From Falsiroseomonas algicola (GTDB lineage Bacteria; Pseudomonadota; Alphaproteobacteria; Acetobacterales; Acetobacteraceae), in NCBI RefSeq assembly GCF_011040385.1, contig NZ_JAAIKB010000003.1, forward strand, positions 186,001 through 250,000: DNA of 64,000 bases, given 5' to 3'. Within the stretch, counting starts at the first letter, position 1; every line of letters starts with the position of its first letter. The notes under the pieces were generated by a model that worked only from the letters and a program-made list of their open reading frames with translations, did not search any database and was not told the origin of the DNA. Position numbers and translations under genes: made by a program. Positions 855 through 5,776 of the stretch are shown piece after piece.

Positions 855-1667
855 ATGAAGATCGGCCTCGTCGGTGCCACCCAGGCCGCGGTGGCGGGGC
901 TCGGCGCCCCCCGCGAACTCGCCGCCATCGCGGCGCCGGGGACGGAGATCCAGGCCTTCCCGACGCGCATGCCGGTCTTCGCGCATACGCCCCTGGAATT
1001 CGCCATGCAGGCGCTGAACACGGTGGAGGCGGGCGTCGCGGCCGCGGCCGCGGGCTGCGACGCGCTGGTGATCAATTCCTTCTCCGACTACGGGATCGCC
1101 GCGCTGAAGGCCGCGGTGGACATCCCCGTGGTGGGGGCGGCGGAGGCGACGCTGCGCTTCGTCGGCACGCTCGGCCCGCGCTTCGCGATCGTCACGGTCT
1201 GGCCGCCCTCGCTCGACTACATGCCGCGCCAGGTGATGCGGGAGGCGGGGGCGGAGGGTGGCTGCGTCCGCATCCGGCATGTGGGGGCGGAGGAGGTGGT
1301 GGCGGGCAGCGCGCGGCCGGATGGCTATGTCAGCGCGCTGCAGAATGGGCAGGGCGACATCCTGGCCCGTATCCAGGCCGCCTGCGACGCGGCGGTGGCG
1401 GAGGATGCGGTGGATGCCATCATCCTCGGCTGCACCTGCATGTCCCCGATCGCGGATCGGCTGAGGGCGGCGGTGCCAATCCTGAACCCGCTGGGCGTGG
1501 CGCTGAAGGTGGCGGAGATGCAGGCGGTGCTCGGCCTGCGTCCGGTGGCGACGGCGCCTCGGCGGCTGCAATCCCTGGCCCGGCTGTCGCAGATGGTGGC
1601 CGCTGGCGCGACGCTGGGAACGGATGGCGACTGTGCCGTCTGCGCGGTGGCCGCCGCTGCCGAATAG
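855..1667 (+). CDS. aspartate/glutamate/hydantoin racemase-family protein, one Cys replaced
   Basis: This is a 270-residue protein of the Asp/Glu/hydantoin racemase superfamily. It starts MKIGLVGATQ and has the second-half motif AIILGCTCMSP with Cys193. In cofactor-independent racemases two cysteines face the substrate; the first normally sits in a CFGDPG-like loop, which here reads NSFSDYG, so Ser75 occupies the Cys position. Members with a single Cys include the arylmalonate decarboxylases, so racemase activity should not be assumed. The ATG at 855 is preceded by GGAGGA at a normal distance; a GTG at 828 would only add an atypical leader. The gene may be co-transcribed with the hydrolase before it and is convergent with the DUF1289 gene. 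Confidence 0.75.
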   Translation: MKIGLVGATQAAVAGLGAPRELAAIAAPGTEIQAFPTRMPVFAHTPLEFAMQALNTVEAGVAAAAAGCDALVINSFSDYGIAALKAAVDIPVVGAAEATLRFVGTLGPRFAIVTVWPPSLDYMPRQVMREAGAEGGCVRIRHVGAEEVVAGSARPDGYVSALQNGQGDILARIQAACDAAVAEDAVDAIILGCTCMSPIADRLRAAVPILNPLGVALKVAEMQAVLGLRPVATAPRRLQSLARLSQMVAAGATLGTDGDCAVCAVAAAAE

Positions 1668-1858
1668 CGGGCGGCAGTGGCCTTTTAGTCACTAAGCCCT
1701 TTTAGCCGGTTCTGCCGATTATGGGCGTTTAGCACCGATTTTCGAGGGCGGCGGCGAAGGTGCCAGGGGGCAGGGCGGGCTGGATGCAGTGCAGGCGCAG
1801 GATGGCCGGAACATAGAGCGAACATAAGGCGCGCTGCAAGTGTTTTCTCCGCGGCCGA

Positions 1859-2065
1859 TCAGCCCTCGGCCCCGCCGCGCCCCAGGGCGGAGAGCCGCGC
1901 CGCGGCTAGGCCGATGATCGCCCGCCGGGCTGCGGCATCGGCCGTCGGCCAGGCCTCGATCTCGGCCAGGGTCCGTCCGCAGCCATCGCAAAGGCCAAGA
2001 TCGGGCCGATAGCGGCAGCTGCGGCGGCAGGGGGAGGCGACCTCCCCATCCGGCGGCTCAGCCAC
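1859..2065 (-). CDS. DUF1289 small cysteine-cluster protein
   Basis: This is a 68-residue protein with the DUF1289 signature SPCRRSC...GLCDGCGRTLAEIEAW. The four cysteines (13, 17, 26 and 29) are spaced like a small metal or Fe-S site, and the family's biochemical role is unknown to me. The start is a GTG that overlaps the stop of the BLUF gene by 8 bases (GTGGCTGA), so the two are almost certainly translationally coupled. The C-terminal half is Ala/Arg-rich and helical. Its coupling to a light/B12 sensor is the notable point, because AppA itself ends in a Cys-rich tail and this protein could supply a comparable redox-sensitive element in trans. That last idea is inference. Confidence 0.75.
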   Translation of the reverse strand: MAEPPDGEVASPCRRSCRYRPDLGLCDGCGRTLAEIEAWPTADAAARRAIIGLAAARLSALGRGGAEG

Positions 2066-3248
2066 GCGCCGCGTCGCCCGCCAGTCGCCGCAGCACGGTA
2101 TCGAGCCCGTGGGCGGTGCCGGACACCGCATCGGCCCCGACCAGCCCGGCCAGCCAGGGGCGCTGCGCGAAGAGGCGCCCCGACAGGCGGATGCGCAGCG
2201 CCTTGTTGGCGGAGGCCTCGCGGAAGCGGCCGAGCCGCCGGCGCAACAGCCCGGCGCCGTCCAGCCGCTCGAAGCTCGGGCTGAGCGACAGGTCGAGCAG
2301 GTCGTAGCGCCCCGCCCGCAGGTGGCGCGCCAGCGCCATGTCGTTCTCCTCGATCTCGAAGCCATGCGCCCAGCCCGACATCCACAGCCATTCGGAGGCG
2401 AGGGTGGCGCCGAGGCCATGCGGTTCCCCGGGCATCGGTGCGACCAGCACGGACGGCAGCAGCGGGCGCGGCGCCACGATCCCCGTGGAACGCCCGAGAT
2501 GCCGGACGAGCGCCTGCAGGCGTCCGAGCGCGATCGTCACCTCCCACTCCGAGAGCGCATCCTCCACCCAGAGGTCGCCCAGGCGGCGCGCGGCAGGTTC
2601 GAAGAGGGTGGCGACATGGCGCCTTCCGTCGCCGCGGCCGGCCGGCAGCGCGATGTCCTCCACCGCGATCCCGGGTTCGCCGAGCAGGGCGAGGAAGCGG
2701 GCTAGGTCCTCCGCGCCGGCCATGACCGGGGTGGTGCGCGGCACGGCGCCCCGGATGAGCGGCAGCAGGGCGGTGCCAGGCTGCGGTTCGGACCCGTCGC
2801 GCGGCGCCAGGCCGAGCGTCGCCATCGTCTCCGTCAGCCGGTCCGGCTCGGCGTGGAGGGCCTCGATCAGCGGTCCCGGCAGGTGCAGCGCGGCGGGTGC
2901 CGCGGCGTCGGCGGCAAGGCGCATGTCCCAGCCGGCGAAGCAGCGCGAGGCGACCGGGCCCTCCGACACCACCTCGATCGAGTCATGCCGGCGATCCAGC
3001 GCGATCGAGCGCATGAGGGTGGCGACGCCGGCGGGTGGGCCTTCCAGCCATTGCAGGTAATGCCCGCGATCCGCGATCAGCAGGCCGGTCACGCCCTCAC
3101 GGTGGTTGCGCCGGCGCGCGGCGGCCAGCAGGTCACCGAGGGGGCCGGCCGCCAGCGGCAGCACGGCGCGGCTGCGATAGACGAGCCGCGTCAGGCGAGT
3201 GGGATGCGGGGTTGCCGTCTGCGAGGCGGGAAGCGCGACCACTGGCAT
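2058..3248 (-). CDS. BLUF photoreceptor with C-terminal B12-binding/SCHIC-like domain (AppA-like)
   Basis: This 396-residue protein has two domains. Residues about 18-115 form a BLUF flavin domain. The key residues are all present: Tyr24 (LVYRS), Asn48 (RRRNHREGVTG), Gln66 (YLQWLEG), Trp107 and Met109 (GWDM). Each sits at a constant +3 offset from AppA Tyr21, Asn45, Gln63, Trp104 and Met106. Residues about 180-385 look like a B12-binding cap plus Rossmann domain of the AppA/PpaA/AerR type, with PGEPHGLG placing His277 as a possible heme or cobalamin ligand. The AppA-type Cys-rich tail is absent. I chose the ATG at 3248 because GGAGGAAG precedes it; the upstream ATG at 3269 has no ribosome-binding site. 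It lies 124 bases downstream of a cobalamin riboswitch. AppA antagonises the repressor PpsR; the same role here is inferred. Confidence 0.85.
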   Translation of the reverse strand: MPVVALPASQTATPHPTRLTRLVYRSRAVLPLAAGPLGDLLAAARRRNHREGVTGLLIADRGHYLQWLEGPPAGVATLMRSIALDRRHDSIEVVSEGPVASRCFAGWDMRLAADAAAPAALHLPGPLIEALHAEPDRLTETMATLGLAPRDGSEPQPGTALLPLIRGAVPRTTPVMAGAEDLARFLALLGEPGIAVEDIALPAGRGDGRRHVATLFEPAARRLGDLWVEDALSEWEVTIALGRLQALVRHLGRSTGIVAPRPLLPSVLVAPMPGEPHGLGATLASEWLWMSGWAHGFEIEENDMALARHLRAGRYDLLDLSLSPSFERLDGAGLLRRRLGRFREASANKALRIRLSGRLFAQRPWLAGLVGADAVSGTAHGLDTVLRRLAGDAARG

Positions 3249-3274
3249 GCACGTCTTCCTCCGGCCCATGGCGG

Positions 3275-3358
3275 CCGGACGGGCATGCGTGCAGGGTCAG
3301 CCGCCGACGGCCTAGAGGCGTCGCGCAGGCCAAGACCCACCCGGCACACCCCGTCCGG
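3275..3358 (-). promoter_or_regulatory. candidate riboswitch expression platform
   Basis: Between the riboswitch and the BLUF start are a 9-bp inverted repeat (minus strand CCGGACGGG at 3358-3350 and CCCGTCCGG at 3283-3275) and a local hairpin CCGGCC-gccatg-GGCCGG that ends against the AGGAAG ribosome-binding site. The second arm of the long repeat shares CCGG with the first arm of the hairpin, so the two structures exclude each other. That is the layout expected for translational control. The role is inferred from pairing only. Confidence 0.45.
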
Positions 3359-3374
3359 TGATCCTCTGTGCCAT
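3312..3374 (-). CDS. possible 20-residue leader peptide at the riboswitch 3' end
   Basis: An ATG directly follows the conserved GGAGACCTGCC end of the cobalamin riboswitch, whose GGAG is well placed as a ribosome-binding site. The frame runs 20 codons (MAQRITGRGV...) to a TAG, about 64 bases before the BLUF start. It could be a leader peptide whose translation the riboswitch gates, or chance, since this ATG position is common at the ends of such riboswitches. No family is recognised. Confidence 0.3.
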   Translation of the reverse strand: MAQRITGRGVPGGSWPARRL

Positions 3375-3565
3375 GGCAGGTCTCCTGGCTCGCGGGTCGG
3401 TACCGGGCCCCGTCTTCCCGGGCCGGGGCCCAGTGACTCTGGTGGAGCCTGATTCGCCGCTCACAGTTGCGGGGGCAGCGACGGCCTGGGCGATGGCCCT
3501 TCCGTCTTCCCTTTTCACCCGGGGCGTGACACCCGGGCACCATTGGCGGGCCGAGCGTCCAGCCA
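3370..3565 (-). promoter_or_regulatory. cobalamin (B12) riboswitch
   Basis: Read on the minus strand, the element carries the conserved blocks of the AdoCbl/cobalamin riboswitch in order. These are a TGAAAAGGGAA block, GCTGCCCCCGCAACTGTGAG, a GGCGAATC segment, GTCACTGGG, a CGGGAAGACGG block, and the terminal GAGCCAGGAGACCTGCC. It precedes the BLUF/B12-binding gene with no other sizeable gene between, so it most likely controls that gene. The 5' boundary is approximate. Confidence 0.95.
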
Positions 3566-3577
3566 TTCAGACGCCGG

Positions 3578-3595
3578 TGTCAAGGAGAATTGACA
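3578..3595. promoter_or_regulatory. TGT-N12-ACA palindrome, candidate PpsR/CrtJ operator
   Basis: TGTCAA-N6-TTGACA is a perfect 6-bp inverted repeat that fits TGT-N12-ACA exactly, the consensus bound by the photosynthesis repressors PpsR/CrtJ. It lies just upstream of the cobalamin riboswitch. Its left arm reads TTGACA on the minus strand and could double as a -35 element, so bound repressor would block the promoter. The match is seen; the binding protein is inferred from the AppA-like gene downstream. Confidence 0.5.
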
Positions 3596-3643
3596 GAAGG
3601 CGTCCGGATCGCGTGCATACGAACGGCACGATCGAGTGACCTG

Positions 3644-3762
3644 CGGCCGGCGAAGCCGGCCGAGGCCGCGACGGGTGCCCATGCGCGTTGCTCCGCAACG
3701 TGCATGGGGTCCCGGAATGCGGCCCGCGGCCAGTGCCGCGAAGCCAAGCCCGCGGAGCGGGC
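3644..3762. repeat. array of four GC-rich hairpins (REP-like intergenic element)
   Basis: Four perfect or near-perfect hairpins follow one another: CGGCCGGC-gaa-GCCGGCCG (3644-3662), a 14-bp stem with a TCC loop (3678-3708), CGCGGC-cagt-GCCGCG (3725-3740) and GCCCGC-gga-GCGGGC (3748-3762). There is no open frame of interest. Together with the riboswitch leader and the terminator next to it, this fills the 570-base gap between the BLUF gene and the TctC-type gene. Confidence 0.6.
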
Positions 3763-3779
3763 GCCGGCGATTGAGGCAG

Positions 3780-3821
3780 AAAAGACGACTACCAACGAGT
3801 CGCTGCAAGCGGCCGTTGGTA
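3780..3821 (-). terminator. probable Rho-independent terminator of the TctC-type pair
   Basis: On the minus strand, directly after the stop of the binding-protein gene, an ACCAACG / CGTTGGT stem with an inner CGCT/AGCG pairing is followed about 7 bases later by a T-rich stretch (TCTTTTTCT). The spacing before the T-run is longer than ideal, hence moderate confidence. Confidence 0.5.
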
Positions 3822-4793
3822 TCACTCGATGCGGATATTGGCCCGGCGCGGCACGGCGGACCATTTCTCCACCTCCGCCAGGTAGAATCGCTGCCAGGCC
3901 TCGCGCTCCATCGGCGCCGGGATCAGGCCGAGGGTCTGGAGGCGCGACGCGACCTCCGGGACCCCCGCGATGCTGGTGAAGGCGGCATGCATGCGGTCCA
4001 GCGCCGCGGCGGGCGTTCCGCGGGGCGCGATGACGCCGAACCAGCTATCGGCCTGCAGCGCCGTGACGCCGAGTTCGGCGAAGGTCGGGACCTCCGGCAG
4101 CAGGGGGCTGCGCGTCGGGCTGGTCACGGCGAGCGCGCGCAGGCGGCCGGCGCGGACATGCTCCGCCACCTCCAGCACGTTGGAGACCATGAAATCGAGC
4201 CGCCCGGCGATGAGGTCCGTCTGCCCCTGTGGCCCGCTGCGATAGGGCACGTGTTCCAGGGTGAGGCCCAGCGCCTCCTTCATGATCTGGTGGGCGGGCT
4301 GCCAGCCGGCCAGCGCGGCGCTGCCGGTCTGCAAGGGGGCGCTGGCGGCGCGGCCGCGGGCGGCGAGCGCGGCCAGGTCCCGGTCCGGTGACCCGGCCGG
4401 CACCACCAGCACATTGGCGGAATTGCCGGCGAAGAAGAGGGCGGTGAAGTCGCCCGCGGTGTCGTAGGGCAGGCGGGCATAGAGGCCGGGCGCCACCGCA
4501 TGGGCGTTCGGGATCAGCAGGATGGTGTGGCCATCGGGTGCCGCCTTGGCCACGCGGTCGGAGGCGATGGTGCCGCCCGCGCCGGTGACGTTCTGCACCA
4601 CCATGGGCTGGCCGAGCAGGGGCTGCATCCGCTCCGCGAAGGTGCGGGCGATGATGTCGGTGGCGCCGCCCGCGCCATAGCCGACGATGAGGGTGACGGG
4701 CTTGTCGGGCCATGGCGCCTGCGCGCGGGCCGGCATCACGGCGATGAGGGGGGCGGCGAGGAAGGGCGAGGCAAGCAGCGATCGGCGCAGCAT
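3822..4793 (-). CDS. TctC/Bug-family periplasmic binding protein
   Basis: This 323-residue protein has a signal peptide (MLRRSLLASPFLAAPL...ARA) and the TctC (Bug) fold signatures PWPDKPVTLIVGYGAGG and DIIARTFAERM near the N-terminus. It also has AAPDGHTIL, EHVPYRSGPQGQ and LPEVPTFAELG, which line the carboxylate-binding cleft. Bug proteins bind organic acids in the periplasm for tripartite tricarboxylate transporters or signalling, but no TctA/TctB membrane genes are nearby. The start lies 5 bases after the stop of a second TctC-type gene, so both are one operon, divergent from the IclR-SMP30 gene. The ligand is probably a sugar acid or related carboxylate, judged from the neighbours. Confidence 0.85.
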   Translation of the reverse strand: MLRRSLLASPFLAAPLIAVMPARAQAPWPDKPVTLIVGYGAGGATDIIARTFAERMQPLLGQPMVVQNVTGAGGTIASDRVAKAAPDGHTILLIPNAHAVAPGLYARLPYDTAGDFTALFFAGNSANVLVVPAGSPDRDLAALAARGRAASAPLQTGSAALAGWQPAHQIMKEALGLTLEHVPYRSGPQGQTDLIAGRLDFMVSNVLEVAEHVRAGRLRALAVTSPTRSPLLPEVPTFAELGVTALQADSWFGVIAPRGTPAAALDRMHAAFTSIAGVPEVASRLQTLGLIPAPMEREAWQRFYLAEVEKWSAVPRRANIRIE

Positions 4794-4798
4794 GCGCG

Positions 4799-5776
4799 TC
4801 ACTCCACCACGATGTTCTGGGCGCGGGCGAGGTCGCGGAAGGTCGCGAGTTCGCGGGCCATGAAGGCGGCGAAGACCTCGGGCTCCGTCTGCTGCGGCAT
4901 CTCGAGGAAGAGCTGCTTGTAGCGGGCGGCGGTCTCCGCGCTGCGGAGGAAGACCTGCGTCTCCTGCGCCAGGCGGGCCAGGATGGGCGCGGGCGTGCCG
5001 GCGGGGGCGGCGAGGCCGTGCCAGGAGGCGAGCTCCGCGCCCGGGTAGCTTTCGTTCAGCGCGGGCAGGTCGGGGTAGTCCGGCATGCGGGCGGGGGCGG
5101 TGGTGGCCAGCGCGCGCAGCCGGCCTTCGCGCAGCAGCTGGGCGGTGGTGGCGGCGACGTCGAAGCTGAGGTCGATGGTGCCGGCGACGAGGGCCTGCAG
5201 CAGCGGCCCGCCGCCATTGAAGGGCACATGCGTCATGCGGATGCCGGCCTTGGCCATGAAGAGCTCGACGCCGAGATGCAGCGAGGAGCCGACGCCGGAG
5301 GAGCCGTAGTTCAGCGCCTCCGGCCGCGCCTTCGCCGCGGCGACGAGGTCCGCGATGGTGCGGACCTCCGGCAGCTTCTGCGGATTCACCAGCACCAGCG
5401 CCGGCGTCACCGCCAGGTTGGAGATCGGGGAGAAATCCTCGATCGGGCGATAGGGCAGGGGGATGCGCCGCACCGCGGGCAGGATGGCGTTGGCGGCGAT
5501 GTTGATGAGGCCGATCGTGTAGCCATCGGGCGCCGCCTTCGCGAGCGCATCCACGCCGATGGAGCTGCCCGCGCCGCCACGATTCTCGATCACGAAGCCC
5601 CGGTTGAAGGCCGCCTGGAAATGCGCGGCGAGCATGCGCCCGACCAGGTCCGCCGCGCCGCCGGGCGGGAAGGGGACGATGAAGCGGACGGGGCGGCTCG
5701 GCCAGGCGTCCTGCGCGCGGGCGACCGCCGGGATGGCGAGCGTGGCGAGGATGAGGCTGCGGCGGGTGGCACGCAT
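4799..5776 (-). CDS. TctC/Bug-family periplasmic binding protein
   Basis: This 325-residue secreted binding protein has a signal peptide (MRATRRSLILATLAIPAVARA) and Bug motifs: WPSRPVRFIVPFPPGG, ADLVGRMLA, KAAPDGYTIG, THVPFNGGGP and the late AAPAGTP. It is the first gene of the minus-strand pair and resembles its downstream partner only as a family paralog. The divergent IclR-type regulator starts 129 bases away across a region with an IclR-like palindrome, so this gene is the likely regulated target. Its substrate is inferred to be the acid or lactone processed by the divergent catabolic genes. No membrane transporter subunits are encoded in the window. Confidence 0.87.
   Translation of the reverse strand: MRATRRSLILATLAIPAVARAQDAWPSRPVRFIVPFPPGGAADLVGRMLAAHFQAAFNRGFVIENRGGAGSSIGVDALAKAAPDGYTIGLINIAANAILPAVRRIPLPYRPIEDFSPISNLAVTPALVLVNPQKLPEVRTIADLVAAAKARPEALNYGSSGVGSSLHLGVELFMAKAGIRMTHVPFNGGGPLLQALVAGTIDLSFDVAATTAQLLREGRLRALATTAPARMPDYPDLPALNESYPGAELASWHGLAAPAGTPAPILARLAQETQVFLRSAETAARYKQLFLEMPQQTEPEVFAAFMARELATFRDLARAQNIVVE

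Follow-up and report, generated by a model that had tools for sequence, protein, structure and literature searches.

In a window of 64 000 nucleotides (nt) from Falsiroseomonas algicola (contig NZ_JAAIKB010000003.1, positions 186 001 to 250 000; 'the window' means this whole stretch), a cobalamin riboswitch stands directly in front of a gene for an AppA-like protein, P0001, which joins a BLUF domain to a four-helix bundle and a B12-or-heme-like domain. The riboswitch is conserved, the arrangement recurs in three classes of proteobacteria, it is linked with the genes of the B12-independent isozymes MetE and NrdAB, and it co-occurs with photosystem genes, PpsR and AerR. Known targets of cobalamin riboswitches are genes for uptake and synthesis and for B12-independent enzymes; in this case a light-sensing regulator of photosynthesis would be controlled.

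We suggest, with a probability of about one half, that the riboswitch represses this AppA-like blue-light regulator when B12 is plentiful and that the protein is a B12-sparing partner of AerR. A broader proposal, which we hold more tentatively and at somewhat less than even chances, places the photoreceptor in a B12-sparing regulon, in which scarcity of B12 would pass control from AerR to the BLUF/AppA-like sensor, in at least three proteobacterial classes and with repeated gain or loss.

The riboswitch and the photoreceptor gene

The original prediction, made from the letters of the window, had placed a cobalamin riboswitch before the gene, and Rfam scoring bore this out. The aptamer (3358..3559, minus strand, as are all features of the window given below) matched RF00174 in cmscan with 107.8 bits (gathering score 31.5; E 4.9e-26) over the complete model, positions 1-189; no other Rfam family exceeded its gathering threshold in the whole 64-kb window. 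The aptamer, which ends 109 nt before the start of the BLUF gene, contains the B12 box GCCAGGAGACCUGCC (3375..3389; read from the sequence) and is directly followed by the P13 hairpin of the expression platform, CCGG[ACGGGGUGUG]CCGG (3341..3358), whose CGGGG loop is able to pair with the CCCCG of the aptamer stretch GCUGCCCCCGCAACUG (about 3464-3479). Membership in RF00174 is backed by the curated threshold, which was exceeded, and by the presence of both the B12 box and the L5-L13 kissing partner.

All 11 leaders examined (the window and ten relatives) have a CGGGG-loop hairpin immediately after the aptamer, and the chosen start codons follow the aptamer by 93-122 nt. In repressing corrinoid riboswitches the L5-L13 kissing loop stabilises P13 and promotes a hairpin that closes the ribosome site (PMC10653944, in excerpt, as are all papers cited here). 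The Shine-Dalgarno sequence GGAGGA of the window (3257..3262; from the sequence) is mostly within a predicted hairpin; in a crude folding model its mean unpaired probability was 0.23 with P13 formed versus 0.27 with P13 open, and the largest shift among the 11 leaders was 0.29 versus 0.43, at locus L037 (L numbers designate loci of relatives).

The nearest homologue among the relatives kept is L034, from a metagenome-assembled genome of Acetobacteraceae, with 69-72% protein identity. Nucleotide identity between the window and L034 was 90.5% in the aptamer, 85.0% from aptamer to start and 73.9% in the coding sequence, versus 41.0% in the 200 nt upstream; this contrast between aptamer and upstream DNA argues, from sequence, that the riboswitch RNA is under selection. 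In L078 (4879-4930) a short hairpin, read by eye, is followed by TTTTT, the sole such leader among the 11, so that control there is possibly transcriptional rather than translational; in L037 (4623-4832) the riboswitch before the BLUF gene is deviant (42.2 bits, with an altered aptamer loop), and the close relative L040 has none.

The gene for P0001 (396 amino acids; 2058..3248; assigned by sequence, profile and structure matches) starts with the ATG at 3248, with GGAGGA at 3262-3257 in front of it, and stops at 2058; an upstream ATG at 3269 is a less likely start. The earlier claim of a complete BLUF domain held: residues 19-109 (2922..3194) matched PF04940 with E 2.1e-23, and the Tyr, Asn and Gln (Y24, N48, Q66), then the Trp and Met (W107, M109), are all present and spaced as in AppA, where we take their counterparts to be Y21, N45, Q63, W104 and M106. 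Y24, N48 and Q66 are invariant in 57 of 57 aligned proteins. P0001 is predicted to be a flavin-based blue-light sensor.

AppA of Rhodobacter (Cereibacter) sphaeroides, the BLUF + SCHIC antirepressor of PpsR, was the best match in both sequence and structure, with the same order of BLUF domain, four-helix bundle and Rossmann-like part. The whole protein matched AppA with E 3.2e-29; for the AlphaFold2 model (mean pLDDT 82.0, pTM 0.81) the top Foldseek match was AppA 4hh1 (E 3.0e-21, 394 columns). Both also come from phototrophic hosts with PpsR. Unlike AppA, P0001 has no Cys-rich tail (its single Cys is residue 103), its His aligns with the cobalamin-ligand position, two residues away from AppA's heme His, and a cobalamin riboswitch precedes its gene, whereas the two Rhodobacter-type AppA loci, L084 and L086, have none.

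Recurrence and B12-independent neighbours

For the survey of homologues four full-length homologues were aligned and one genome per species was scanned; 290 relatives were found and 80 kept for study. Of these loci 54 were scanned with Rfam (part at E 0.1, the rest at the gathering score) and 26 by a pattern and our own covariance model. Both domains were spanned by 56 loci, 54 of them with enough upstream DNA (L041 and L043 had too little); among the 26, these were L099 and L104, the other 24 being mainly BLUF (L079 is cut by the contig end at residue 249).

In addition to the window, 11 of the 56 two-domain loci have a cobalamin riboswitch immediately before the gene and in its orientation, or 11 of 54 when only loci with sufficient upstream DNA are counted. 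Ten came from the Rfam scan (L034, L037, L048, L051, L053, L057, L071, L078, L081 and L092); the eleventh, L104, was found by the pattern and our own covariance model (110.5 bits), which found none at L099 or at the 24 mainly-BLUF loci. From 89 riboswitches in 49 genomes (220.6 Mb), ∼0.004 such placements would be expected by chance in 54 loci. The hosts span alpha-, beta- and gammaproteobacteria: Acetobacteraceae and kin (Plastoroseomonas, Roseicella), Aquibium, Rhodobacteraceae, Rhodovibrionaceae, Burkholderiales, Lysobacteraceae and other Gammaproteobacteria. On a protein tree of 55 rows, 11 of them riboswitch-bearing (L117, L041 and L043 were left out; L104 and L099 are also absent), the trait required 9 changes, at least 6 of them forced by well-supported branches; repeated gain, repeated loss and transfer, each of which may have produced this distribution, were not separated.

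The riboswitch and the photoreceptor each belong to a known kind; what appears to be new is that they are coupled, that this recurs and that it is linked with B12-independent isozymes. The original prediction knew of no description of such wiring. As to the literature this stood: no description of the coupling, its recurrence or the isozyme link was found in open-access papers (most subscription papers lie outside that scope), and the excerpts of PMC2654016 and PMC12654162 do not mention 'riboswitch'. In nature the wiring recurs elsewhere, as described above; the idea that the arrangement is unique to this genome, in agreement with the first 19 relative loci, which had none, was rejected after the wider survey. 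A plasmid collection gave 16 records, none covering 80% of P0001, and viral contigs gave no match with the single protein P0001 as query.

Five of the 11 riboswitch-bearing loci hold a B12-independent isozyme with a riboswitch of its own: MetE in L034, L037 and L092, NrdAB in L081 and L104. A tblastn search of all 80 loci found MetE, NrdA or NrdB in none of the other 69. The hypergeometric probability of this link is 1.9e-5 over 80 loci and 1.2e-4 over 56; the test was chosen post hoc and is a guide only. Pfam confirmed MetE, MTHFR and both subunits, large and small, of ribonucleotide reductase at these loci. The order in L034 is riboswitch, BLUF gene, DUF1289 gene, riboswitch, metE; comparison of gene order in relatives, proposed with the original prediction, thereby found in this member of Acetobacteraceae the riboswitch, BLUF gene and DUF1289 gene arranged as in the window. 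L037 and L092 have the BLUF gene and metE facing each other, with metF in between in L092, and metE is again behind a riboswitch of its own; in L081 nrdA and nrdB with their riboswitch come first, then the second riboswitch with the BLUF gene. At L104 nrdAB and the BLUF gene are divergent, each behind its own riboswitch; the two riboswitches (4426-4875) are separated by about 120 nt, and the BLUF protein encoded there has lost the cobalamin-type His. The genome of L081 has an NrdJ-type match over the cut-off; the other of its two over-threshold matches is its own nrdA site.

The likeness to riboswitch control of metE/metH and nrdAB/nrdJ lies in the same riboswitch family, the same genomes and these shared neighbourhoods; unlike the B12-independent isozymes, the protein under control here is no enzyme but a signalling protein that senses light. 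The isozyme neighbourhoods indicate a B12-sparing role rather than double sensing of B12. Neighbouring riboswitch pairs are 57.6-65.3% identical, close to the mean of 60.4% for riboswitches in general, so that copying from the adjoining metE or nrdAB is not supported as a simple cause. Riboswitches near photosynthesis genes, or on contigs with such genes, in two relatives were also considered, and rejected: judged by eye, their surroundings are ordinary for B12 (TonB receptors, cob/btu-type genes).

Host genomes and the rest of the unit

The window's genome (6.56 Mb, 99.3% complete, 3.5% contaminated) has reaction-centre genes, MetH and two PpsR/CrtJ matches over the cut-off, one of which adjoins an AerR-type gene and bchF; the separate AerR is at C66:108387-109373. 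The second PpsR/CrtJ match (443 bits; G000:C90:29435-30763) is inside a frame of 1086 codons and not on the AerR-PpsR contig. Three cobalamin riboswitches were found in this genome, before the BLUF gene, a TonB receptor and metE.

The two-domain gene (E <= 1e-40) was present in 25 of 397 genomes of the family, and each of these 25 belongs to the 125 genomes that match Photo_RC; matches in two pieces were counted once, and four more genomes matched the C-terminal part only. Among 33 wider genomes 32 had a Photo_RC match, the exception being that of L046. PpsR was present in 15 of 15 genomes tested, in 14 over the cut-off. Photosystem genes, PpsR and an AerR gene beside ppsR were found in all 11 riboswitch-bearing genomes examined (the window's and ten others), and MetH was over the cut-off in 10 of 11 tested, including the window's and the three metE genomes.

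A DUF1289 gene with a GTG start (1859..2065; PF06945, E 1e-12 on the longer open frame) overlaps the photoreceptor stop by 8 nt, so the earlier description of the riboswitch as leading to a single gene was not exact. The same pair is found in L034, where the DUF1289 gene, at the same place, is 70% identical, and the gene is probably the second of the riboswitch unit. Its small protein contains Cys and could conceivably take the role of AppA's Cys-rich tail, which the photoreceptor does not have. Upstream of the unit are tandem genes of TctC-type solute receptors (3822-5776), one confirmed by Pfam and the other taken from the translated frame. Behind the TctC-type gene a terminator-like stem with a T-rich tail (3785..3803; a consensus match only) would set the riboswitch unit apart from it; 2 such sites were found within 1600-4000 versus a mean of 0.5 in shuffles.

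Readings of the coupling

With a B12-sparing role, adenosylcobalamin (AdoCbl) in plenty would shut the BLUF gene through the riboswitch, and the protein would be made when B12 runs short. It would then sense blue light by its flavin and bind PpsR/CrtJ as AppA does, relieving repression in dark or dim light. AerR/PpaA, the other partner of PpsR, needs B12 both as chromophore and for binding PpsR; low B12 would thus weaken AerR and at the same time raise the BLUF protein as a flavin-based stand-in. We base this on two observations: in a two-hybrid assay with Dinoroseobacter proteins B12 was essential for the PpaA-PpsR interaction (PMC10890935), and in B. subtilis constructs metE riboswitch specificity and MetH function were largely aligned (PMC9600662). 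The BLUF protein would be to AerR what riboswitch-controlled MetE is to MetH and NrdAB to NrdJ. We infer the sign of the switch (off), PpsR as the target, replacement of AerR as the benefit and the status of functional counterpart.

How far the C-terminal domain resembles AerR bears on a rival reading, double sensing of B12, which the original prediction had raised. In it the domain binds cobalamin as AerR does and the riboswitch has a homeostatic part, raising synthesis at low B12 and so keeping enough loaded photoreceptor; such a protein would integrate blue light, through the flavin, with the B12 state or with light sensed by cobalamin. The cap and Rossmann-like part of P0001 (residues 208-396; 2061..2627; placed by AppA/AerR matches, alignments and the model) carries W227, PGEPH277GLG, a long strand-3/helix-3 loop and G357. 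In line with the domain type claimed originally, residues 171-396 alone matched AppA (E 1.4e-9) and AerR 7te2 (E 1.8e-7) among PDB sequences, and 7te2 was also among the fold matches. In the alignments H277 is in the register of the AerR lower ligand (PGEPH277) and W227 is the cap Trp, the counterparts of His145 and Trp94, which in SAerR, together with Phe101 of the cap, hold cobalamin (PMC9144470). Of the 57 aligned proteins, only the two Rhodobacter-type AppA and L104 have lost the E/D-x-H motif, which the other 54 retain; this suggests that heme-type AppA is a derived exception. The motif is kept in 11 of the 12 riboswitch-bearing members, window included, and the cap Trp in 50 of the 57. 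The position of the AppA heme ligand, His284, is E275 in P0001, so that the AppA register is not matched. A second chromophore beside B12 in one photoreceptor has a precedent in the photocobilins, which combine B12 with a bilin (PMC10979010) and one of which, 8j2w, was among the fold matches; unlike them, P0001 would have flavin in place of bilin and a different output, and its cobalamin binding is putative.

Against double sensing, the equivalent of Phe101 is Glu234, and the strand-3/helix-3 region has 33 residues in P0001 versus 29 in all eight AerR rows that were read in the correct frame (L149-L152, L156 and L158 gave no usable row) and 32 in two AppA rows; across the 57-row alignment 53 proteins have 33 residues there, three have 32 and L104 has 30. 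AppA is reported to carry its heme His two positions away from the cobalamin ligand, with a longer loop that fills or blocks the cobalamin site (PMC9144470). The fold is also closer to AppA (TMt of the C-terminal part 0.81 for 4hh3_C versus 0.65 for AerR 7te2). The ligand pocket expected earlier is thus partly there: His and cap Trp are present, Phe is replaced and the loop is AppA-like. Of the profiles proposed for the protein the BLUF one matched, but the Pfam B12-binding models gave no match in the Pfam scan, and AppA_SCHIC was below its cut-off (E 0.0015; AppA_4HB, E 0.047). Two riboswitch-bearing members do not fit either: L104 has kept the riboswitch and lost the His, and L092 has no cap Trp. 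The domain may bind cobalamin, heme or neither, and double sensing appears to us unlikely, though the strongest of the rivals. AerR/PpaA, the cobalamin-binding CrtJ/PpsR antirepressors, share with P0001 the E-x-H motif and the cap Trp, and the same repressor partner is expected; unlike P0001, AerR has no BLUF domain, has Phe in the cap and the shorter loop, and lies beside ppsR, and at 14 AerR loci with flanks of about 1.5 kb we found neither a riboswitch nor a BLUF motif. This contrast and the loss of the His in L104 favour the B12-sparing role.

One could also speculate that light itself gates the riboswitch: by destroying AdoCbl it would remove the ligand and induce the BLUF protein in bright light for a photoprotective shut-down of pigment, B12 supply being secondary. 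Light breaks down both AdoCbl and methylcobalamin, and aquocobalamin, which is stable in light, has been proposed as the regulating form in bright waters (PMC8123684); moreover, the gene under control encodes a light sensor, and reaction-centre genes are present in all 11 riboswitch-bearing genomes tested. Yet metE, nrdAB and the TonB receptor, for which light is not a known signal, are also preceded by riboswitches of this family, and no feature of the leaders bears on light gating, so we regard this as improbable on its own; loss of AdoCbl by light, acting on the aptamer, could add to either a B12-sparing role or double sensing. Far less probable still is that the riboswitch is a relic of a lost B12 gene or an effect of the adjoining metE or nrdAB, with no part in the photoreceptor's regulation. 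The adjoining riboswitch-controlled genes in 5 of 11 loci and the weak aptamer of L037 are what such an origin would leave, but the conservation of the aptamer relative to its upstream DNA, the recurrence in three classes, the uniform spacing and CGGGG hairpin of the 11 leaders and the absence of near identity between adjacent riboswitches all speak against it.

Several observations weigh against the B12-sparing role. Six of the 11 riboswitch-bearing loci have no isozyme neighbour, and the window's own BLUF gene is not beside metE, which is on another contig with its own riboswitch. With 43 of 54 homologue loci with enough upstream DNA lacking the riboswitch, the family can do without B12 control, and the L037 aptamer may be in decay. 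Folding of the 11 leaders gave no clear change in ribosome-site access between the states, so that the off direction rests on the general behaviour of the class, in which an activating corrinoid riboswitch also exists (PMC10653944). Retention of the cobalamin-type His in 11 of 12 riboswitch-bearing proteins would not be needed in a purely B12-free protein. The presence of AerR does not discriminate, since three of three riboswitch-free genomes have it too, and the 11 genomes with photosystem genes, PpsR and AerR do not include that of L104.

If the B12-sparing role is true, it would explain why phototrophs possess both B12-based and flavin-based partners of PpsR, and expression of the photosystem would be tied to vitamin supply through RNA. 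The role of AppA-like proteins outside Rhodobacter would then become directly testable.

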